From: Actinobacteria bacterium HGW-Actinobacteria-7
GTDB lineage: Bacteria > Actinomycetota > Coriobacteriia > Anaerosomatales > PHET01
Direction of reading: 5' to 3'
Assembly (NCBI GenBank): GCA_002841275.1
Contig: PHET01000024.1
Span: 1-32,414 of the forward strand
Length of the DNA: 32,414 nt
Positions within the stretch are counted from its first letter, which is position 1; each line of letters starts with the position of its first letter. The position numbers and the translations under genes are program-made. Positions 7,371 through 20,095 of this stretch are shown here, in pieces. Under the pieces are notes generated by a model, which saw nothing but the letters and a program-made list of their open reading frames with translations, was not told the DNA's origin and ran no database searches.

Positions 7371-7775
7371 AATCAGTCGAGAGTGCGAACCGTGCCGGCG
7401 GAGAAGCTCCGCCTTGCCGTGTGCACTTGTGCCCGTTGGCCACGACTGAGGAGGGGCTCATCTTGAAGCGCGGTCCGCGCCGCTGAGTCAGGGACACACC
7501 GACCGGTCGCGTCGGCACACAGAGCCCAACCCTTCCCCAACATCTTCATCTCACCCAACCCCTCCAAAGCCATTCTCGGCGGTGTTTCGGCGCGTGCGCC
7601 AACACAGCCGGTGGTTCTTCATTCATGGACACCGTGAATCGAGCCGTCTGGAAGGGAGGCGTCGCCTGACAGGAGTGCTCGTCTGGGCCGCGGGTTCGAT
7701 GAGATCCTGAGACGTCCAGACGAGAAGCTGGAAGAGGAAGAAGAAACGGACGGAACCCCCAAGGAGGTGTATGGC
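7371..7775 (+). other. Structured 405-base leader upstream of the hydrogenase
   Basis: There is no convincing gene here. Several nested helices are visible: TCAGTCG (7373-7379) with CGACTGA (7443-7449), enclosing the hairpin GGCGGAG-AAG-CTCCGCC (7397-7413); then GGGCTC (7454-7459) with GAGCCC (7522-7527), enclosing CCGAC/GTCGG (7499-7515). A third element is the 9-bp repeat CTCGTCTGG/CCAGACGAG (7678-7686 and 7716-7724) just upstream of the hydrogenase ribosome site. The first hairpin may also end the HAD transcript. No known riboswitch class is recognised. Confidence 0.45.
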
Positions 7776-8951
7776 ATGGCATATGAGGATCGAGCGTTCG
7801 CAGAGCAACTCGCGGCGCGCGGCGTCACCCGTCGCGACTTCGTGAAGTTCTGCGGCTCAGTCGCCGCGATGCTCGGTCTGTCCGAGTCGATGGTTCCCAC
7901 CATCGCTTCGGCAGTCGAGAGCGCAGCTGGCTCGAAACTCTACCCGGCAGTCTGGGTCAATGGCGGTGCGTGTACGGGCTGCACCGAATCGATGGCTCAG
8001 GCAACCTATCCGGATGTCGCAACGGTCGTGCTCGACATCCTCTCCATGAACTACATGGAGACGGTGATGATGGCCATGGGCGCAGATGCCGAGAAGGCAC
8101 TCTACGACACGGTCAACAACAATGAGGGCAAAGCGATCATGATCTACGAGGGTTCGGTCATGAAGGGCTGGGACGGCAACGCTCTACGCGTCGCCGGCGA
8201 ACCCAGTCTGAAGATCCTCGACGACCTTGCGCCCAAGGTCGCTGCGATCATCGCTGTAGGCTCGTGCGCCGTCGATGGCGGATGGGTCAAAGCCGGTCCA
8301 AACACCGCGGACGCCACGGGCGTCTCGATGTACCTGGCCGAGAAGGGCATCAAGACACCGGTCATCAACCTACCGACCTGCCCGGTGAATCCCGAATGGA
8401 TCGTGGCGATGGTTGTCGACGTTCTGCTTCTGGGCGAACTCGAGAGCGGCGCGATTCTGGGAAAGCTCGATGCCCAGGGGCGTCCCAAGCTCATCTTTGG
8501 CCAGACCATCCACGACAACTGCCCGCGCCGCGGTCATTTCGAGAACGGTGAGTTTGTCTACCAGTTCGGCTCTCCCGAAGAGGCCAAGGGCTACTGCCTG
8601 TACGCGATGGGCTGCAAGGGTCCTCAGACTCAGACCAACTGCCCGATCGTGCGCTGGAACAACCAGACGAGCTGGTGTGTTGAGTCCGGGTCACCGTGTA
8701 TCGGCTGCGGCAACTTCAACTGGGTGGACAATGGCGCGCCCTTCCTTGGTCGCATGCGCAAGGTCGCAATCGGCTCAGGATCCCACAACGGCGGATTCGC
8801 GCCTGGCGTGGCTGGTGCGGCTGTGGGCGGCGTTGTCGCCGCAGCTTTGGGCGTCCACGCAATCGGCATGGCGGCTACCGGCCGTCTAGGCAACATGCCG
8901 GACACCGAGGATGTCAAAGAGCACGATCGCAAGAAAGGGGGCGATAAGTAG
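7776..8951 (+). CDS. hyaA: [NiFeSe] hydrogenase small subunit, TAT-exported
   Basis: Electron-transfer subunit of a group-1 uptake hydrogenase, 391 residues. A twin-arginine signal (TRRDFVKF, R19-R20) directs the folded complex across the membrane. Proximal [4Fe-4S] ligands are C66, C69, C164 and C202; distal cluster ligands are H246, C249, C274 and C280. Medial cluster ligands are C289, C308 and C311, with C301 at the place where ordinary [NiFe] enzymes have proline, which predicts a [4Fe-4S] rather than a [3Fe-4S] cluster, as in known [NiFeSe] hydrogenases. The proximal site lacks the extra cysteines of O2-tolerant enzymes. A glycine/alanine-rich hydrophobic segment (340-367) is the C-terminal membrane anchor. 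The ATG at 7776 follows AAGGAGG by eight bases. The stop overlaps the large-subunit GTG by one base. Confidence 0.96.
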   Translation: MAYEDRAFAEQLAARGVTRRDFVKFCGSVAAMLGLSESMVPTIASAVESAAGSKLYPAVWVNGGACTGCTESMAQATYPDVATVVLDILSMNYMETVMMAMGADAEKALYDTVNNNEGKAIMIYEGSVMKGWDGNALRVAGEPSLKILDDLAPKVAAIIAVGSCAVDGGWVKAGPNTADATGVSMYLAEKGIKTPVINLPTCPVNPEWIVAMVVDVLLLGELESGAILGKLDAQGRPKLIFGQTIHDNCPRRGHFENGEFVYQFGSPEEAKGYCLYAMGCKGPQTQTNCPIVRWNNQTSWCVESGSPCIGCGNFNWVDNGAPFLGRMRKVAIGSGSHNGGFAPGVAGAAVGGVVAAALGVHAIGMAATGRLGNMPDTEDVKEHDRKKGGDK

Positions 8952-10609
8952 TGGCACGTTCAGTAATCGACCCCGTGACCCGAATCGAGGGTCATCTCCG
9001 CGTCGAATGTGAAGTTGAAAACGGCGTCATCACCGATGCTTGGGTCTCTGGCGGCCTGTTCCGTGGCATGGAAGCCGTCATGCAGGGACGCCAGCCGTCT
9101 GATGCGTTCTATATCGCCCAGCGTATCTGTGGCGTATGTCCCATCTCCCACGGCCACGCTTCGACGATGGCTGCGGAAGACGCACTGGGTATCACGATCC
9201 CCAACGGTGCCCGCATCGTCCGCAACATCATCGAAGCGGCGCAGTTCCTGCACAGCCACATTCTCTGGTTCTACACGCTGGCTGCGCTCGACTACGTGAA
9301 CCCCGCCAAGGCGCTTGAGGCGAACATCGCCGACACATACGCGCTCGCCGAGGCCGCTGGAACCTCAACCGCCAACTTCGCGGTCGTCCAGAACAAGGTC
9401 AAGACGCTCGTTGAGGGTGGCGATCTTTCGATCTTCACCGGCGCTTGGTTGGATCATCCTGGCTTTGCCGCCGACATGCCCGCCGAGCTTCACCTGATCG
9501 CGGTCGCCCACTATCTCGAGGCACTCGAGATCCAGGCCGAAGCATCTCGTGTAATTGCGATCATGGGTGGCAAGTTCCCGCACTTCATGACTTCGATCCC
9601 AGGCGGCACTTCCTGGATGCCCACTGAGGAGAAGCTCGACGACGTACTGTTCCGTCTGATGCGTGTTCGCGACTGGGTTATGAACACCATGATTCCCGAC
9701 ACGCTCGCAATCGCCCCGTTCTACTCAGACGCTCTGTCCTACGGTGGCGGTACCGGCAACTTCCTGGCTTGGGGTGTCTTCAACCGTGAGTCCCTCGAGA
9801 TGAAGGACCGCTACCTGCCAAACGGTGCCGTGTTCGTGCCCACCAGCGGCCTGACTGTTCAGGACGCCGATCCAGGCAAGATCGCTGAGTACGTCGAGCA
9901 TTCCTGGCTCAGCGAGGGCGAAAGCGGACTCAACCCCGCAGACGGTGTGACCGTCCCGCCCAAGGAGTTCCCAGGCTACGACACCGGCGACAAGTACAGC
10001 TGGGCCAAGGCCCCCCGCTACGACGGCAAGTCCACCGAAGTCGGCCCACTGGCGCGCATGATCGTCGCGTACCTCCGCGGCGTCGAGCCGGTCAAGGCTC
10101 TCATCGACTCCACTCTGGAGAAGCTGGGTGCTGCCGGCAAGCCCGAGGTGCTCGTGTCTTTGCTCGGTCGCGTCGCTGCTCGTAACCTCGAGACCGCAGT
10201 CGTTGCCGACTGGTCACTCGAGTGGGCCAACGAACTCATCGCTGCCGTGAAGGGTGGCGGCGTGGAGTTCTTCAAGCCTCTGGAGAATGACAACGGCAAG
10301 GGCCGGGGCATGTGGGAGGCACCGAGAGGCGCGCTCGGCCACTGGATGAACGTCCAAGGTGGACTCATCGCCAACTATCAGGTCGTCACTCCATCCACGT
10401 GGGACATCAGCCCCCGTGACAAGGATGGCGTTCGTGGCCCGATGGAAGAAGCGCTTGTCGGTGCACCGGTGCTCGATCCCGAGCGCCCGATCGAGGCGGG
10501 CCGTATCGCCCGAAGTTTCGATCCTTGAATCGGATGCGGCGTTCACGTGATTGAACGCAAAACGGGTAAGCAGGGCACGGTCTACACGCGCAAGTGGGGG
10601 GTGAAGTAG
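8951..10609 (+). CDS. hyaB: [NiFeSe] hydrogenase large subunit with selenocysteine at TGA
   Basis: Catalytic subunit that oxidises H2 at a nickel-iron site. Read normally it stops at TGA 10526-10528 after 525 residues ending RSFDP, with no C-terminal nickel ligands. Read through, it has 552 residues and ends at TAG 10607-10609. The N-terminal motif RICGVCPISH supplies C60 and C63. The C-terminal motif becomes D-P-U526-I-G-C529-G-V-H532, the [NiFe] consensus DPCxxCxxH with Sec replacing the first Cys. The 20 residues after H532 fit the tail removed by the maturation protease. A SECIS-like hairpin follows the TGA (10539-10558). The GTG start overlaps the small-subunit stop, and the cytochrome b ATG directly follows the TAG. 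The sequence shows the motif; Sec insertion itself is inferred from it. Closest named relatives are HysA-type enzymes, but here cytochrome b is attached. Confidence 0.95.
10526..10558 (+). promoter_or_regulatory. Sec codon TGA and bacterial SECIS hairpin
   Basis: TGA at 10526-10528 is followed by a hairpin: GCGTTCA (10539-10545), loop CGTGAT (10546-10551), TGAACGC (10552-10558), all seven pairs Watson-Crick. Counting the U of UGA as 1, the loop G and U fall at 22 and 23, close to the conserved GU of the E. coli fdhF SECIS that SelB recognises. The hairpin lies inside the coding sequence, as bacterial SECIS elements do. Confidence 0.85.
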
Positions 10610-11278
10610 ATGTCTCACGCCTACACGCGGGAGATGCATCCGCTGGCGTTCGTCGTGAGCCATTGGACGAACCTCTGCGCCATGGTCTTCCTCACTCTGT
10701 CGGGGCTCTACATCCACTATCCGATCTTCCCGGGCTTCATGGGAGCGGCGCGCGGCACGCACAACTTCTGGATGTTCGTACTGCTCATCAACCTCGTGGT
10801 TCGGCTGGTCATGGGATTCACTCTCAAGACCTCCAAGCTCGCGGGTGGTCGTGAGAAGGAACTCGACATCAAGAACTTCTTGCCGCAGGCCGAGAACCGG
10901 CACCAGTTGTGGCCCACGATCAAGTACTACCTGTTCCTGAAGAAGGAACATCCGTTGGGCGGCAAGTACAACTCGCTGCAGAAGTTCGCCTACGTACTGA
11001 CGGTCCCCCTCATTCTGCTCGCTGCCTACACGGGCTTCGCGCTGTGGGGACCCACGAGTCAGTGGTCGTTCTTCCTTGCGGGAACCACCATGGTCGCCAA
11101 CTGGTTCAACGGCGGCGTGGGCGGTGCTGCGTTGATGCCGATGCGCATCGTGCACTACTGGACGATGTGGGCGATTCTCTCGTTCACCTTCATCCACGTC
11201 TACCTCGCGAACATCTACGGCTTCGATGCCGACAGGATCATGTTCGCCTGGAAGGAGACCGGCACCGATCACGCCTAG
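10610..11278 (+). CDS. hyaC: Hydrogenase b-type cytochrome subunit
   Basis: A 222-residue membrane protein of the Ni/Fe-hydrogenase cytochrome b family. It anchors the hydrogenase dimer and passes electrons from the small-subunit clusters through two b hemes to quinone. Four membrane segments are visible at about 12-35, 51-71, 125-146 and 180-203. Candidate heme histidines lie in or near them: H18, H51, H182 and H196. The ATG immediately follows the TAG of the large subunit with no gap, implying translational coupling; this tight junction also supports the read-through end of the large subunit. The gene is followed by a strong terminator. Confidence 0.92.
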   Translation: MSHAYTREMHPLAFVVSHWTNLCAMVFLTLSGLYIHYPIFPGFMGAARGTHNFWMFVLLINLVVRLVMGFTLKTSKLAGGREKELDIKNFLPQAENRHQLWPTIKYYLFLKKEHPLGGKYNSLQKFAYVLTVPLILLAAYTGFALWGPTSQWSFFLAGTTMVANWFNGGVGGAALMPMRIVHYWTMWAILSFTFIHVYLANIYGFDADRIMFAWKETGTDHA

Positions 11279-11416: not shown

Positions 11417-12001
11417 ATGAACAGTCCGGAACGAATCCTTGTGATGGGTGTCGGCAATCCGATGATGCGCGACGAAGGTGCAGGACCGCGTACCGTCGAG
11501 ATAATCATGAGGTCTTTTGACTTCCCGGACAACGTTGAGGTCGTCGATTGCGGCACCATGGGCTACACGATTCTCGATGTGTTGCGTGATGTGGATCAGC
11601 TGATCGTCATAGACGCGCTGAGAGACCCGGATCTCGAACCCGGCACCGTGGTTCGACTCGAGCCTTCCGACTTCGCCTCCAGCCAAGTGATGCATTCATT
11701 GCATGACATTCGTCTGCCGGAGGTCCTTCAGGCCGCCGCGCTCATCGGCAGGGCGCCAAACACCGTCGCCATCGGAATCCAGATAGAGTCGATCGAGGAA
11801 TGGGTGCTTGAACTGTCAAAGCCGGTGGAGGAGGCCCTGCCCGTTGCCGTCGCCGCGGTTCTCGAAGAGCTCAGCGCTCTGGGGGTGGTCCCAACGACGC
11901 GTACGGACAGCGAGGTCGACTCCCGCATCATCGAAGCCGTGCGCAGCTACGCCCCCATTCCGCCGGAGGCCCTCAGGCCGCACGATGAAAGCTGTTCCTA
12001 G
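11417..12001 (+). CDS. hyaD: Hydrogenase maturation protease, HyaD/HybD family
   Basis: A 194-residue endopeptidase that clips the C-terminal tail of the large subunit after the last nickel-motif histidine once the NiFe site is complete. The family signature is present: VMGVGNPMMRDEGAG near the N-terminus (the acidic residue is a nickel-sensing ligand), VVDCGTMG, LIVIDALRD and the histidine region HSLHDIRLPEVL. The ATG at 11417 has GAAGGAG five bases upstream. The expected substrate is the neighbouring selenoprotein, whose 20-residue tail is intact. A terminator precedes the gene, so it depends on read-through or its own promoter (a TACACT -10-like element is at 11373-11378). Its stop overlaps the convergent transketolase stop. 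Confidence 0.93.
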   Translation: MNSPERILVMGVGNPMMRDEGAGPRTVEIIMRSFDFPDNVEVVDCGTMGYTILDVLRDVDQLIVIDALRDPDLEPGTVVRLEPSDFASSQVMHSLHDIRLPEVLQAAALIGRAPNTVAIGIQIESIEEWVLELSKPVEEALPVAVAAVLEELSALGVVPTTRTDSEVDSRIIEAVRSYAPIPPEALRPHDESCS

Positions 12002-14012: not shown

Positions 14013-14819
14013 GTGCACACCGCTCTGGACATCGCCAGATCATCCGCCACCGCTGGAGCTACGATCCTTGATTCGATGCGCGAGAACATGGGCGACGTCC
14101 GTTCGAAGGACAGTGCCACCGACTTCGTCACGGAGGCCGACGTCGCCTCGGGCCTCGCTATCGTTCGCGAGATACTGAGACTCGACCCGAATGCTCGCGT
14201 GTTGGTCGAGGAGCCTGAGGTATGTGAACAGCTGAGTCTGGAACCGGGTGCCTTGGATGATCACGAAGTCTGGGTGATCGACCCGCTCGATGGAACGACG
14301 TCATTCCTGCACGGCTTCCCCTGCTTCTCGGTCTCTGTCGCCTTGGTACGTGATGGGCAGGCGATCGCCGGCGCCGTGTACAACGTCGCCTTGGGGGAGC
14401 TCTTCTCGGCAGCACGCGGACTCGGTGCCTTCAAGGACGGCAGGCCTATCCGCTGCAGCACCGCTTCAAGCGTGCGTGACGCGCTGCTCGTGACCGGGTT
14501 TCCCTATGACCGCGGAGCACCGCTCGATCGGCAGCTCGCGGTCCTGGCCGCCTTCTTGCGCACGCCGGTTCACGGGATCCGTCGTGACGGTTCCGCCGCC
14601 AACGACTGCTGCCACGTCGCGATGGGTCGCGCAGACGGCTTCTGGGAGTACACCCTCAAACCGTGGGACATGGCCGCAGGCGCTGTGATATGCGCCGAGG
14701 CCGGGGCCATTGTGACTGCGGCCGACGGTGCACCCTGGAGCGCTTCGAGCACCAGCATCTGCGTCGCCAACCCCGCGGTTCACCGAGACATGCTCGCCGT
14801 CATCGACAGTGCTGACTAG
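14013..14819 (+). CDS. Inositol-monophosphatase-family phosphatase
   Basis: A 268-residue Mg2+/Li+-dependent phosphatase. Metal ligands are seen in VEEPE (E66-E67), in WVIDPLDGTTSF (D90, D93) and in LKPWDMAAG (D219). The family acts on inositol phosphates, fructose-1,6-bisphosphate, PAP or histidinol phosphate. The closeness to SuhB-like enzymes fits inositol monophosphatase, but the substrate is not fixed by sequence. The GTG start is preceded by TTGGAGG. It is divergent from transketolase and convergent with the second cgoX, with which it shares CTAG at the stops. Confidence 0.88.
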   Translation: MHTALDIARSSATAGATILDSMRENMGDVRSKDSATDFVTEADVASGLAIVREILRLDPNARVLVEEPEVCEQLSLEPGALDDHEVWVIDPLDGTTSFLHGFPCFSVSVALVRDGQAIAGAVYNVALGELFSAARGLGAFKDGRPIRCSTASSVRDALLVTGFPYDRGAPLDRQLAVLAAFLRTPVHGIRRDGSAANDCCHVAMGRADGFWEYTLKPWDMAAGAVICAEAGAIVTAADGAPWSASSTSICVANPAVHRDMLAVIDSAD

Positions 14820-16309
14820 AAGGCGCGCTTCTCCTCTACTCGGTCCTCTTCAAGTTCGATGCCCCACTCGGTCAGTACTTTGGTTGCAGCCCGTTCGCCG
14901 CTTTCGATGCAGTTAGGGACGCCCACACCGCGATATGAGCCGCCTGCAAGCGCAAGACCGGGAGTGGCCTCGCAACGCTCCTCGATCTGCGCAACACGAT
15001 CGAGGTGCCCGAGGGTGTACTGCGGCATGCCACGATGCCAGCGGAACAGGCGCTTGAACAGCGGTTTAGCGTCGGCGCGAATCCCCAGAATCGAACGCAT
15101 TTCCGATAGGACAATCTCGAAGAGTTCCTCGTCGGACTTCTCCATGATCTCCTGATTCTGCGGCCCACCCACAAAACCGCGGAACATGACCTTGCCCTTG
15201 GGCGCGCGGCCCGGCCATTTGGTCGAGGAGTAGGTCGCGGCCATGAGCGCGCGATTCTCAACCAGCGGGCACAGCACTCCGAATGCATTCATGTCGATGC
15301 CGACCTCGGACTCCTCGAACGCGATCGACACGGTCGCAGATGAGCTGGTGGGGATGCCTGCGAGCGCGTTGGCGATGTCGTTGTCGACTCCACGCAGCAG
15401 TGGTTCCGCAGCGAATGTCTCAGTGGCCACGATCACGGCGTCGCTCGTCTCAACAGAACCATCGGACAGCGTGACAGTCCAGCGTCCGTCCTCTGTGCGT
15501 TCGAGCTTCTCGGCTGATACGCCGGTCTTGATGTTCTCGGCGCCTATGGCACCCGCCATACCGTCCGTAAGGCGCTGCATCCCGCCAATCATAGTGGTGA
15601 AGAAGGTCTTCGGCTTTGCGCCGGGCTTAGGCGGATACTTCTTGCGCATCTGCTCGACCTTCTTACGCGATGCCAAGAAGGCACGCATGAGCGAGCCGTA
15701 GTTCTGCTCCATCTCGAGCAGACGGGGGAACGTCGCAGCCAGTGACATCATTGTGGGGTCGGAGGCGTGGACACCGCCTACGAGCGGCTCTGCAAGACGG
15801 TCAAGGCACTCGCGCCCCATCCGCCGGACCACGAAGTCCTCGAGGGTCTCGTCGTTGAGCGTACCTTCCGCGACGGTCTTGGGGGGGATGAACAGATCCA
15901 TCGCCATCCGGAACTTGCCGGGCCACGAGAAGAGTCCCGTGGTTGCGAAGGGCACGAACTTCGTGGGGGCGAACATCATGATGCCGTCAGGCATCTCGTA
16001 GAGACGTCCGCGAGAGAGGATCAGCGTCTTCTTGCGTGAATCGTCGGTGGGCAGCTCATCGTCGAAGATCCCCAGTGACTGTGCGATGCGGTGCACCGCG
16101 GGCTTCTCGGTGAGAAAACAATCCGGGCCGCCGTCGACGGTGAACTGCTCGCCATCGTGGTCGACCATCTCGGTGGCAACCTTGCCTCCGATGCGGCTCT
16201 TCTCAACGAGCAGGATCTCCACTTCGTGGCCTTCCTGTGATGCCCGCTTGAGCTTGTATGCCGCGCCGAGTCCAGCTGCCCCGCCGCCAATCACGATGAT
16301 CCTCTTCAC
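14816..16309 (-). CDS. cgoX: Coproporphyrinogen III/protoporphyrinogen oxidase, copy 2
   Basis: A 497-residue FAD-dependent HemY/HemG-type oxidase. The dinucleotide motif IIVIGGGAAGLGAAY is at the N-terminus and the FAD-contacting GGSYRGVGVPNCIESG near the C-terminus. In the Gram-positive route such enzymes (CgoX) oxidise coproporphyrinogen III to coproporphyrin III. It is the last gene of the minus-strand heme cluster and is a tandem paralog of the upstream gene; long shared stretches (for example PDGIMMFAPTK, RRMGRE, LAEPLVGGVHASDP) show a duplication. The GTG at 16307-16309 follows GAGGGAG; an upstream extension is rejected because it runs into the neighbouring gene. The two copies may differ in substrate or oxygen requirement. 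Confidence 0.9.
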   Translation of the reverse strand: MKRIIVIGGGAAGLGAAYKLKRASQEGHEVEILLVEKSRIGGKVATEMVDHDGEQFTVDGGPDCFLTEKPAVHRIAQSLGIFDDELPTDDSRKKTLILSRGRLYEMPDGIMMFAPTKFVPFATTGLFSWPGKFRMAMDLFIPPKTVAEGTLNDETLEDFVVRRMGRECLDRLAEPLVGGVHASDPTMMSLAATFPRLLEMEQNYGSLMRAFLASRKKVEQMRKKYPPKPGAKPKTFFTTMIGGMQRLTDGMAGAIGAENIKTGVSAEKLERTEDGRWTVTLSDGSVETSDAVIVATETFAAEPLLRGVDNDIANALAGIPTSSSATVSIAFEESEVGIDMNAFGVLCPLVENRALMAATYSSTKWPGRAPKGKVMFRGFVGGPQNQEIMEKSDEELFEIVLSEMRSILGIRADAKPLFKRLFRWHRGMPQYTLGHLDRVAQIEERCEATPGLALAGGSYRGVGVPNCIESGERAATKVLTEWGIELEEDRVEEKRAF

Positions 16310-16346
16310 GTTGCTCCCTCGCACTGTCGCTTCGAGTCGTACCCGA

Positions 16347-17861
16347 CTAGTAGATTCGCTGTTCCTGAGCTGAGTCCTCTTCAAGCACCATGCCGAACTC
16401 CCCAAGCACCTTGCTGACTGCGCGCTCGCCGCTCTCGAGGCAGTTGGGGATTCCCACGCCGCGGTAGCTCCCGCCCGCCAGCGCCAGTCCGGGGATCGCA
16501 GCAGTCCGTGCCTCGACCTCGTCGATACGATCAAGGTGGCCCATCGTGTACTGCGGCATGCCATCGGTCCAGCGGAAGACCCGCGCGAACAGCGGTTTGG
16601 CCTCAGCCTTCACGCCCAGGATCTCGACGAGCTGCTGTCGGACGATCTCGATCAGCTCATCGTCAGACTTCTCCATCACTTCTTGATTACGAGGCCCGCC
16701 CACAAACCCACGTAGCAACACACGCCCCGCAGGCGCACGGTCCGGCCACTTGGACGACGACATGGTGACCGCCATGACCGGACGACCCTCAACGAGCGGA
16801 CAGAGAATCCCAAAGAATCGCGTGTCGAACGGACAGTCCTCGGCCCGAAACGCCATGGGTACCGTCGCTGACGACGAGAACGGAATCTGGCCGAGCAGCT
16901 CGGCGATCCCCGGTTCCACCTGCGCGACGAGGTTGGCAGCTGCCCAACCTTCAGTCGCAACGATCACGGCATCGCCGGAAAGAACCTCTCCGTTATCGAG
17001 CTCTACTTCCCAACCGCCGTCGTCGGTCCGGCGAAGGGGAGCCGCCGAAACGCCCGTGCGAATCTGATCGCGTCCAGCTGCATCCGCAATGCGATCTGTG
17101 AAGAACTGCATCCCTTTGAGAAATGAGGTGAAGAACGTCCGGCGCTTGGCGCCCGGTTTGAGCGGGTACCTCTTCTTGATAGCCTCGACCTTCTTGCGCT
17201 GAGCAAGAAACCCTCGGACCAGCGACCCGTACTGCTGCTCCATCTCGAGTAGCGACGGGAAGGTGGCAGCGAGTGACATCAGTGCCGGGTCAGAAGCGTG
17301 TACTCCACCGACCAGCGGCTCCGCGAGGCGATCGAGTGACTCCCGGCCCATCCGGCGAACCACGAAGCTCTCGAGTGACTCGTCGTGTTGTTGCGCCGTC
17401 TCGCCCTCCGCCCAACGCTCTTTGCGCGGCAGAAACAGGTCGAGCGCCATACGGAACTTCGCGGGCCACGAGTACAGCGACGTGGTCGCCATGGGCAGGA
17501 TCTTGGTGGGCGCGAACATCATGATGCCGTCAGGCAGTTCGATCAGCTTGCGCTTCTTGACGATGAGCGTCTTCTTGTTCTCATCACAGGTGGGGGTCTC
17601 GTCTTCGAAGATACCGAGCAACTTCGCGATCCGGTGAACGCCGGGCTTCTCGGTGATGAAGGCGTCGGACCCGCCATCGACCACGAACTGACCGCCGGTT
17701 TCGGGGTCCTCCACCACCTCGGTGACGAGCTTGCCACCCAGTCGGGAGTCCTTCTCGACGAGTACGAACTCTACCTCGTGCCCAGCCTGCGCGGCCCTGC
17801 GTATCTTAAATGCGGCACCGAGTCCGGTAACTCCGCCGCCAATGATGATGACTCGCTTCAA
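16347..17861 (-). CDS. cgoX: Coproporphyrinogen III/protoporphyrinogen oxidase, copy 1
   Basis: A 504-residue FAD flavoprotein of the same family as its downstream neighbour. It has RVIIIGGGVTGLGAAF at the N-terminus, VDGGSDAFITEKP in the FAD/substrate region and GGSYRGVGIPNCLESG at the C-terminus. It carries a small insertion (EDPETGGQ, about residue 55; and near 150, GETAQQHDES) relative to copy 2. The TTG start is chosen because ACAGGAG lies just upstream and the dinucleotide motif must begin within a few residues. It lies 72 bases after hemH and 37 bases before copy 2, so co-transcription is likely. Position beside hemH matches its expected role in making coproporphyrin for the ferrochelatase. 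Confidence 0.92.
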   Translation of the reverse strand: MKRVIIIGGGVTGLGAAFKIRRAAQAGHEVEFVLVEKDSRLGGKLVTEVVEDPETGGQFVVDGGSDAFITEKPGVHRIAKLLGIFEDETPTCDENKKTLIVKKRKLIELPDGIMMFAPTKILPMATTSLYSWPAKFRMALDLFLPRKERWAEGETAQQHDESLESFVVRRMGRESLDRLAEPLVGGVHASDPALMSLAATFPSLLEMEQQYGSLVRGFLAQRKKVEAIKKRYPLKPGAKRRTFFTSFLKGMQFFTDRIADAAGRDQIRTGVSAAPLRRTDDGGWEVELDNGEVLSGDAVIVATEGWAAANLVAQVEPGIAELLGQIPFSSSATVPMAFRAEDCPFDTRFFGILCPLVEGRPVMAVTMSSSKWPDRAPAGRVLLRGFVGGPRNQEVMEKSDDELIEIVRQQLVEILGVKAEAKPLFARVFRWTDGMPQYTMGHLDRIDEVEARTAAIPGLALAGGSYRGVGIPNCLESGERAVSKVLGEFGMVLEEDSAQEQRIY

Positions 17862-17933
17862 AGTATCTCCTGTCAACTTGCAAGCTTGTTGTGGACGAGA
17901 CACCGCGAGTACCGGCTCGGCGGCGTCGGATGC

Positions 17934-18905
17934 TCAGGCCAGATCGGCCACCATCTTGGCGACGGACTCCATGAGAATCATGTGTTGATTCGGAACAGGT
18001 ACCCGAATGAATTCGAGATCTGCCTCCAGAGCCTTGTCGGCCGCAACGATATCGAGGTCGTACAGCGTCTCCATATGGTCGGTCATGAAGCCGATCGGAC
18101 AGACCACAAGCGCTTTGACTCCCGAAGCGGCAGCCACGTCGATGAGTTCGTCGAGATCCGGGCCAAGCCACGGGCCCGGTCGGTTCCCTTTCGACTGATA
18201 GACGAGGAACCATGCGCGCGGCTGCTCATCGCACCCAAAGGCCGAGAACCCCGGCAAGACAGCCTGCTTGACGCCCTTCTTGCCCGCGCCCATGCCCATG
18301 GTCTCCGCGATTGAGTTCGCGGTGTGTATCAGCCCGGTGACGTACGGATCATCCGGGTCGAGGTCCGACTCAGGAAGACTGTGGGCGGTGAAGACGACGA
18401 TAGCCCCTTCATTGGGCTCGATATCTGTGAGGGCGACCGAGATCGCGCCAGCGAAGTAGTCCGCGAATGCGTTCAGGGAGGAAACGAGGGGCGCCTCGAC
18501 GACCTCGAGTCCGCCGATCTCGGCAGTGGCTGCCGCGATCGCTTCGCGGTACGCGCCGTGCGCCACCTTGCTCTCAAAAGGCGACAGCGAGACGGTGACC
18601 ACGCGATCGCAGCCATGGGCCTTGAGTTGGACTAGGCCGTCCCGGATGTACGGGTCCCAATAGCGCATGCCCACAGCGACCGGAATGTCCTTGCCCAGCT
18701 TGGTCAACTGCTCATGTAGCTCGGATGCGATCTCGCCGGCGATCTCGGTCAACGGCGAGGAGCCGCCAATAGCCAGATAGCGACGGCACACCCGCTGGAC
18801 AAGTTCCTCAGACGGTTCCTTGCCCATGAGATTGCACATGAAGGGTGCAACGGACGCGATGGAGTCGGGACCGCCAAAGCCGGTGAGGAGTACGCCTGTG
18901 GTCAT
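17934..18905 (-). CDS. hemH: Ferrochelatase (coproporphyrin type)
   Basis: A 323-residue enzyme that inserts Fe2+ into a porphyrin. The catalytic histidine is H175 in VVFTAHSLP and the metal-site acid is E279 in DHMETLYDLD. In Actinobacteria and Firmicutes the substrate is coproporphyrin III (CpfC), and the adjacent CgoX genes support that assignment. The C-terminal [2Fe-2S] cysteines of some actinobacterial homologs are not evident. It starts 5 bases after the hemE stop, with AGGGGTG as ribosome site. HemQ, the final enzyme of this route, is not in the window. Confidence 0.94.
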   Translation of the reverse strand: MTTGVLLTGFGGPDSIASVAPFMCNLMGKEPSEELVQRVCRRYLAIGGSSPLTEIAGEIASELHEQLTKLGKDIPVAVGMRYWDPYIRDGLVQLKAHGCDRVVTVSLSPFESKVAHGAYREAIAAATAEIGGLEVVEAPLVSSLNAFADYFAGAISVALTDIEPNEGAIVVFTAHSLPESDLDPDDPYVTGLIHTANSIAETMGMGAGKKGVKQAVLPGFSAFGCDEQPRAWFLVYQSKGNRPGPWLGPDLDELIDVAAASGVKALVVCPIGFMTDHMETLYDLDIVAADKALEADLEFIRVPVPNQHMILMESVAKMVADLA

Positions 18906-18910
18906 GTCTG

Positions 18911-19984
18911 TTACACCCCTGCCCGGATGCGCTCCGAGTGCTCATGCACGAGACGTATCATCGTGCGAGCCTTCTCGGGATCGCTTGTCTTGTGGATACC
19001 GTGACCGAGGTTGAAGATATGGCCCGGGCGGGTTCCGACAGCCTCGAGGATCTCGACGACCATCTCTTCGAGCGCGGCGTCCGGGGCGAAGAGCGCAACC
19101 GGATCGATGTTGCCCTGGATACCGAACTTCGGATCGATCAGCTCGACGGCCTTCTTCATGTCGAGGCGCCAGTCGACGCCAACGATATCGCCGCCCGCCT
19201 TCTGCACCAGATCGAGCATCGACGTGGCGCCGTTCGCGAAGTGGATGACCGGTACACCGCCGTCGGGAACGACCTTGTCGCCGTGCGCCTTCACTGCAGC
19301 GAGAACCCGCTGGCTGTACGGAAGGACGAAGCGCTCGTAGTCTCTCGGGGCCACGTATCCGACCCAACTGTCGAACATCTGGACCACCTGCGCGCCGGCA
19401 TCGATCTGGGCACACAGGTAGGCGATCACAGTCTCGGTGAACTTGTTCATCAGGCTGTCCCAGGCTACAGGATCGCCCCACATCAGCGCCTTGCAGTTCT
19501 CATAGTCCCGAGTGCCGCGACCTTCGACCGCGTAGCTCGCCAGAGTGAAAGGGGCGCCGGCGAAGCCGATGAGCGGAACCTTGTTCTCCAGCTCGTGACG
19601 AAGGATCTTGATGGTCTCCATCACGTAGCCGGTGTCGTCAATCGGGTCAGAGAGACCCAACTTCTGAATGTCAGCCATGGTGCGAACAGGATTGTTGATG
19701 ATGGGACCGACGCCGCTCTTGAATTCGAGGTCGAGACCCATGCCAGGAAACACCACAAGGATATCGCTGAACATGATCGCGGCATCTACACCCACTAGAT
19801 CCACCGGCTGCATGCTGACCTCAACGGCCAGCTCAGGGTTGTAACACATCTCAAGGAAGCCGTGCTTCTCGCGAATCGCACGGTACTCGGACATGTAGCG
19901 ACCAGCCTGACGCATCATCCACACGGGAGTGCGCTCGATCGACTCAAGCCGAGCAGCGCGAAGGAAGAGGTCGTTGAAGGCCAT
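18911..19984 (-). CDS. hemE: Uroporphyrinogen III decarboxylase
   Basis: A 357-residue enzyme that converts uroporphyrinogen III to coproporphyrinogen III. The signature RTPVWMMRQAGRYMSEYR (R25, R29) is at the N-terminus. MFSDILVVFPGMGL follows, then GFAGAPFTLASY, DSWVGYV and the C-terminal NLGHGIHKTSDPEK histidine region. The ATG at 19984 follows AAAGGAAA; ten further upstream codons lack a better site. It is the first gene of the heme cluster hemE-hemH-cgoX-cgoX, separated from acs by a terminator. Confidence 0.95.
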   Translation of the reverse strand: MAFNDLFLRAARLESIERTPVWMMRQAGRYMSEYRAIREKHGFLEMCYNPELAVEVSMQPVDLVGVDAAIMFSDILVVFPGMGLDLEFKSGVGPIINNPVRTMADIQKLGLSDPIDDTGYVMETIKILRHELENKVPLIGFAGAPFTLASYAVEGRGTRDYENCKALMWGDPVAWDSLMNKFTETVIAYLCAQIDAGAQVVQMFDSWVGYVAPRDYERFVLPYSQRVLAAVKAHGDKVVPDGGVPVIHFANGATSMLDLVQKAGGDIVGVDWRLDMKKAVELIDPKFGIQGNIDPVALFAPDAALEEMVVEILEAVGTRPGHIFNLGHGIHKTSDPEKARTMIRLVHEHSERIRAGV

Positions 19985-20095
19985 GGAGTAGTTTCCTTTC
20001 GGGTGTGAGAACAAGCAGGGGCGCGCACCGCACGCCGACTCGCGATTCTACCATGCCCTCCATCCGGTGGCACGAGACAGCTCCTGTGATACGAA

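Follow-up and report, generated by a model that had tools for sequence, protein, structure and literature searches.

The VhuU/VhuA and FruA hydrogenases of methanogens, which have the Cys isozymes Vhc and Frc, are group 3 cytoplasmic enzymes with an archaeal selenocysteine (Sec) system and archaeal SECIS, and they carry Sec at the same UxxC motif as the enzyme described here. The HysAB enzymes of Desulfovibrio and Desulfomicrobium resemble it in that Sec replaces the same nickel ligand and is followed, two residues later, by Gly (PDB 5jsh). According to a 2026 review, [NiFeSe] hydrogenases are exclusive to sulphate-reducing and methanogenic microorganisms (PMC13188914). Group 1i of the [NiFe] hydrogenases is listed in HydDB as the Coriobacteria-type, with its role undetermined (PMC5037454), and the description of the Anaerosomatales reports a group 1i [NiFe] hydrogenase together with H2-dependent growth on thiosulphate, sulphur or Fe(III) (PMC9686372). 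Both papers present group 1i as plain [NiFe], and selenium is absent from their main texts (PMC5037454, PMC9686372).

Here we analyse a gene for the large subunit of a group 1 [NiFe] hydrogenase, with an in-frame TGA where the C-terminal nickel motif has its first cysteine. No earlier description of Sec hydrogenases in this actinobacterial group was found in the open-licence literature. What appears to be new, judging from the sequences, is the lineage and its extent, namely an order-wide Sec hydrogenase in Actinomycetota, the chemistry being ordinary. Sec hydrogenases would thereby be extended to a large actinobacterial group, with relatives in subsurface, sediment and termite-gut genomes, in which they have seemingly not been described.

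Hydrogenase operon and in-frame TGA

The window, that is, the whole 32,414-nucleotide stretch analysed (contig PHET01000024.1 of Actinobacteria bacterium HGW-Actinobacteria-7), contains a cluster of four hydrogenase genes, all on the plus strand, with the following features:

7767..8951, plus strand: hydrogenase small subunit with a twin-arginine signal (TIGR00391, 303 bits; TAT signal TIGR01409; PF14720/PF01058; PDB matches)
8951..10609, plus strand: hydrogenase large subunit (PF00374, 530 bits over residues 38-532; translation)
10520..10546, plus strand: C-terminal nickel motif DPUIGCGVH (sequence; conserved in homologues)
10526..10528, plus strand: in-frame TGA, predicted Sec codon (TGA in about 60 distinct homologues)
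10539..10558, plus strand: bSECIS-type hairpin (fold; conservation; paired changes)
10547..10606, plus strand: 20-residue C-terminal tail (translation)
10610..11278, plus strand: b-type cytochrome subunit (HyaC-like), the putative membrane quinone link (PF01292, 79 bits)
11420..12001, plus strand: hydrogenase maturation endopeptidase, HyaD/HupD-like (PF01750, 88 bits; TIGR00072, 129 bits)

The small subunit contains the proximal-cluster motif CTGCTES, and the cytochrome subunit scores 87 bits against TIGR02125, below the cut-off of that model. Under the standard code the large-subunit gene gives an open reading frame of 525 amino acids ending in ...RSFDP; the initial annotation, too, had placed the conventional end right after Phe-Asp-Pro. 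Its further reading of the C-terminus also agrees with the sequence: the codons GAT CCT TGA ATC GGA TGC GGC GTT CAC give D-P-U-I-G-C-G-V-H when TGA is read as Sec, and the read-through C-terminus continues from this motif with VIERKTGKQGTVYTRKWGVK (20 residues, VIERK to KWGVK) up to a TAG at 10607-10609, directly followed at 10610 by the start codon (ATG) of the next gene. The full-length translation comprises 552 amino acids and has all four ligand positions of PF00374, the N-terminal pair C60/C63 (RICGVC) and the C-terminal pair U526/C529, with the first position of the UxxC being the in-frame TGA. The PF00374 search of the whole genome returned one match with TGA. Because standard translation cuts such proteins before two of the nickel ligands, surveys may call the enzymes truncated or plain [NiFe].

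Some 60 distinct homologues, taken from independent genomes, have the same TGA within the same motif, which excludes chance or a sequencing error. Decay of the nickel motif downstream of the TGA, which would have spoken against a functional read-through, was not observed; the TGA homologues preserve both the motif and the tail.

We propose that the product is the large subunit of an H2-uptake hydrogenase, exported by the Tat route and anchored in the membrane, in which Sec at the first position of the C-terminal CxxC would serve as one of the four ligands of the nickel. At the UGA, the downstream hairpin (nucleotides 14-33 counted from the U) would recruit SelB with Sec-tRNA(UCA), so that Sec would be inserted and synthesis would run on to the TAG. 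Nickel insertion would come first, after which the adjacent HyaD-type protease is expected to cut the 20-residue tail off after His532, a site predicted from PDB entries whose processed chains terminate in the same His. In the mature enzyme, electrons would pass from H2 through the small subunit and cytochrome b to quinone and be used in anaerobic respiration, and selenium may benefit catalysis or O2 tolerance.

Elsewhere in the window, two adjacent, similar protoporphyrinogen-oxidase-like genes (14816-16564 and 16347-17903, minus strand) adjoin ferrochelatase-like and uroporphyrinogen-decarboxylase-like genes (17934-20014); all these names were assigned by eye from the translations.

SECIS hairpin

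Bacterial SECIS elements are hairpins a short way past the UGA, whose small apical loop has G as its first or second base. The hairpin in the window is of this form: a 7-bp stem, GCGUUCA/UGAACGC, closes a 6-nt loop, CGUGAU (10546-10551), which starts at nucleotide 21 and has G as its second base. Counting stems of at least 5 bp with a loop of 5-6 nt at a fixed place after the TGA, we found the hairpin stem in 61 of 62 Sec homologues (the exception being L038) versus 2 of 38 Cys homologues, and synonymous recoding of the same proteins yields a qualifying stem in 5.6% of draws. The stem also covaries: one position is GC, CG or TA and another is TA or CG, the loop being one base shorter in 13 sequences at the latter position. 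The folding energy of the SECIS stretch of the window taken alone is unremarkable (z -0.45), and across the family it is significant relative to synonymous recodings in some members only; the case for a SECIS therefore rests on conservation of the stem at a fixed place. An Rfam scan gave no family above threshold at the hairpin and no SECIS match, only sub-threshold noise.

Two Sec homologues, L035 and L038 (7539 onwards; copy in L134), have the motif DPUVGCGVQ, in which Gln replaces the conserved His of the tail cut; their processing or function may differ.

Sec machinery

The source genome (2.53 Mb, scored 100% complete) contains all four components of the Sec machinery for which the initial annotation had suggested a search. 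The selA gene scores 596 bits and is adjoined by selB, which is split by a contig end that shares 79 nt with the end of contig C2, and selD lies upstream of selA and has an in-frame TGA of its own in GUAAK. The tRNA-Sec (93 nt, 69 bits) has the anticodon TCA (UCA in RNA). With the tRNA-Sec model RF01852, tRNA-Ser-like matches of 40-51 bits are misleading in genomes without selA, and we trusted matches only near or at least 68 bits. Two further genes of this genome would be mis-annotated under the standard code, namely selD itself (L098, in-frame TGA upstream of 5987) and the formate-dehydrogenase-like gene L161, in which an in-frame TGA precedes His (RIUHSS).

Among the matches listed for 298 Coriobacteriia genomes, selA is present in 59 of the 71 genomes with the TGA (12 without) versus 83 of the 227 others (144 without), an association with a Fisher p of about 4e-12 when kinship is ignored. 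Outside Coriobacteriia, selA was found in 20 of 20 TGA genomes tested versus 9 of 15 Cys genomes. The 12 TGA genomes without selA are drafts, two of which have a strong tRNA-Sec and one selB; in the rest, the selA cluster may be missing from the assembly or truly absent. Since selA and selB are frequently located at contig ends (the ends of L098 and L099; G055, G067, G099, G109, G141), failure to see the Sec machinery in a metagenome-assembled genome (MAG) is weak evidence. In G022, a 99% complete genome of the same order whose only listed copy is Cys, we detected no selA, no selB above the cut-off and no convincing tRNA-Sec.

Decoding of the TGA and class of the enzyme

The presence of the Sec machinery and of the SECIS, along with conservation of the motif and the tail, supports the Sec decoding put forward in the initial annotation, and it is very probable, as judged from these sequence data, that the TGA codon is read as Sec. 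The standard code does end the open reading frame at this codon, as expected of a genuine stop in a broken pseudogene, but that interpretation is highly improbable and refuted as far as sequence can do so: the downstream frame is open and conserved in the about 60 distinct homologues, the hairpin covaries, the Sec machinery is complete and the operon is intact. Furthermore, among near relatives the tail codons after the TGA differ mostly synonymously, which indicates that the tail is under selection. Genome-wide reassignment of UGA to another amino acid is favoured by no observation and is contradicted by the use of TGA as a stop: 8 of the window's 24 main genes end in it, and nine Sec hydrogenase genes have it as their natural stop codon. 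Because these Sec genes themselves end at TGA, the codon must be read by context, and its service as a plain stop, together with the SECIS, rules out a changed code, an extremely improbable reading.

Selenocysteine decoding being accepted, the enzyme could in principle be a HysA-type [NiFeSe] hydrogenase transferred from sulphate reducers, given that the motif position is the same and that HysA also has U-x-G-C. This origin is very unlikely. The HysA model (NCBIfam NF045518), whose cut-off is 780 bits, scores the protein at 434, compared with 404-426 bits for the Cys relatives, and in the PDB the highest scores go to standard [NiFe] enzymes (451 bits; HysA reaches at most 359); in addition, the Sec clade nests within a Coriobacteriia clade that includes Cys relatives, in a tree computed without full-length HysA. 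On the evidence of these model and structure scores, the enzyme would work like a [NiFeSe] hydrogenase and yet lie outside the HysA family. Its functional class, [NiFeSe] hydrogenase, is strongly supported by the four ligand positions and the Sec decoding set. The enzyme is neither HysA- nor VhuU-type; it forms a separate Sec lineage in the membrane-bound uptake hydrogenases of Coriobacteriia. It differs from HysAB also in that its operon includes a membrane cytochrome b.

A Cys beside the medial cluster of the small subunit is a trait of HysB. As a marker of Sec it was rejected: it occurs in 82 of 82 small subunits, Sec and Cys alike, and is not tied to Sec because the Cys forms here have it too.

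Among whole-length NCBI models, the best match is NF033181 (NiFeSe_hydrog), which gives 529 bits; its cut-off is 600, and the gene would accordingly go unnamed by it. Assignment to group 1i, the Coriobacteria-type, follows from clustering apart from other group 1 enzymes (100/100) and from an operon comprising small and large subunits, cytochrome b and maturation protease. The locus shares with group 1i the clade, the operon plan (as in PMC9686372) and the proposed role in H2 uptake, whereas published group 1i enzymes are described as plain [NiFe] and the gut Eggerthellales members have Cys. The lineage is a phylogenetically separate representative of a known kind of enzyme, widespread and easily missed in annotation.

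Sec and Cys homologues in Coriobacteriia

We compared eighty homologues from named genomes, in addition to the 298 genomes of Coriobacteriia. In the window's own order almost every member carries the TGA, as do some termite-gut Coriobacteriia, and Eggerthellales-type gut members have TGC or TGT at the Sec position. L028, from the window's order, belongs to an Anaerosomatales MAG, and L123 and L125, also of this order, group with it. In a tree of 50 sequences, the Coriobacteriia clade (100/100), into which the Eggerthella-type sequences also fall, comprises a Cys clade (99/97) and a Sec clade (98/95). One Cys sequence, L154 (G038:C106), lies on a long branch inside the Sec clade; its tail is still of the Sec type and its Gly is kept, and the hairpin is gone, as a recent Sec-to-Cys reversion, its likely origin, would lead one to expect. 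Several Coriobacteriia genomes hold Sec and Cys paralogues, like the Vhu/Vhc-type pairs of methanogens; in single MAGs, the two large subunits are located on different contigs (L039/L060, L063/L053, L065/L055). These Sec and Cys clades, paired copies and the recent reversion constitute a natural series for the role of selenium in a membrane-bound uptake hydrogenase.

Within the Coriobacteriia clade, the residue two positions after Sec is Gly in 49 of 49 distinct Sec stretches, and Ala is found in 32 of 32 Cys sequences. Gly as a general companion of Sec was rejected, seven Sec enzymes of other actinobacterial lineages having Ala.

Transcripts of a NiFe hydrogenase rank in the top 10% in strain EMTCatB1 (PMC7943316). 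The genome of this strain (G003) has a single full-length PF00374 gene, whose coordinates match L045 and which carries the TGA, so that the highly expressed transcript is probably that of the Sec gene.

Sec hydrogenases in other Actinomycetota and direction of change

Scanning 396 genomes from across the phylum revealed further TGA homologues at 42-49% identity. Of the twelve retrieved, 11 (L169-L179) are group 1 hydrogenases of other Actinomycetota classes; they read DPUxxCxxH and share a nearly identical SECIS, and the remaining one, L180, has Cys. The hairpin is at the same place in 10 of these 11 sequences from outside Coriobacteriia, and in L179 (G343:C6) it lies further downstream, with 9 bp, closing near nucleotide 29, and the loop GUC. 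Genome G330 carries both Sec and Cys copies (L173, L187). L175 and L177, which represent one Sec lineage outside Coriobacteriia, pass the NF033181 cut-off, and this lineage is accordingly closer to what NCBI already models.

The wider tree contains at least two more Sec clades beyond Coriobacteriia and requires at least four changes between Sec and Cys. One explanation is that the actinobacterial group 1 hydrogenases originally had Sec, with the Cys forms arising later by reversion, as opposed to several gains of Sec. The near-identity of the SECIS hairpins across separate Sec clades and the one clear reversion, L154, speak for ancestral Sec, but the outgroups have Cys, as does L181 at the base of the sister group, and the tree, with its four or more changes, leaves their direction unfixed; an ancestral Sec thus seems doubtful, its chances being appreciably short of even. 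A broader scenario, in which actinobacterial group 1 hydrogenases gained or lost Sec at least four times, most Anaerosomatales would need selenium for H2-driven respiration, and genomes holding both Sec and Cys forms would switch between them according to selenium supply, as with methanogen Vhu/Vhc, is offered tentatively, as one we rate slightly below an even chance. The H2 respiration of this actinobacterial group might in this way be tied to selenium.
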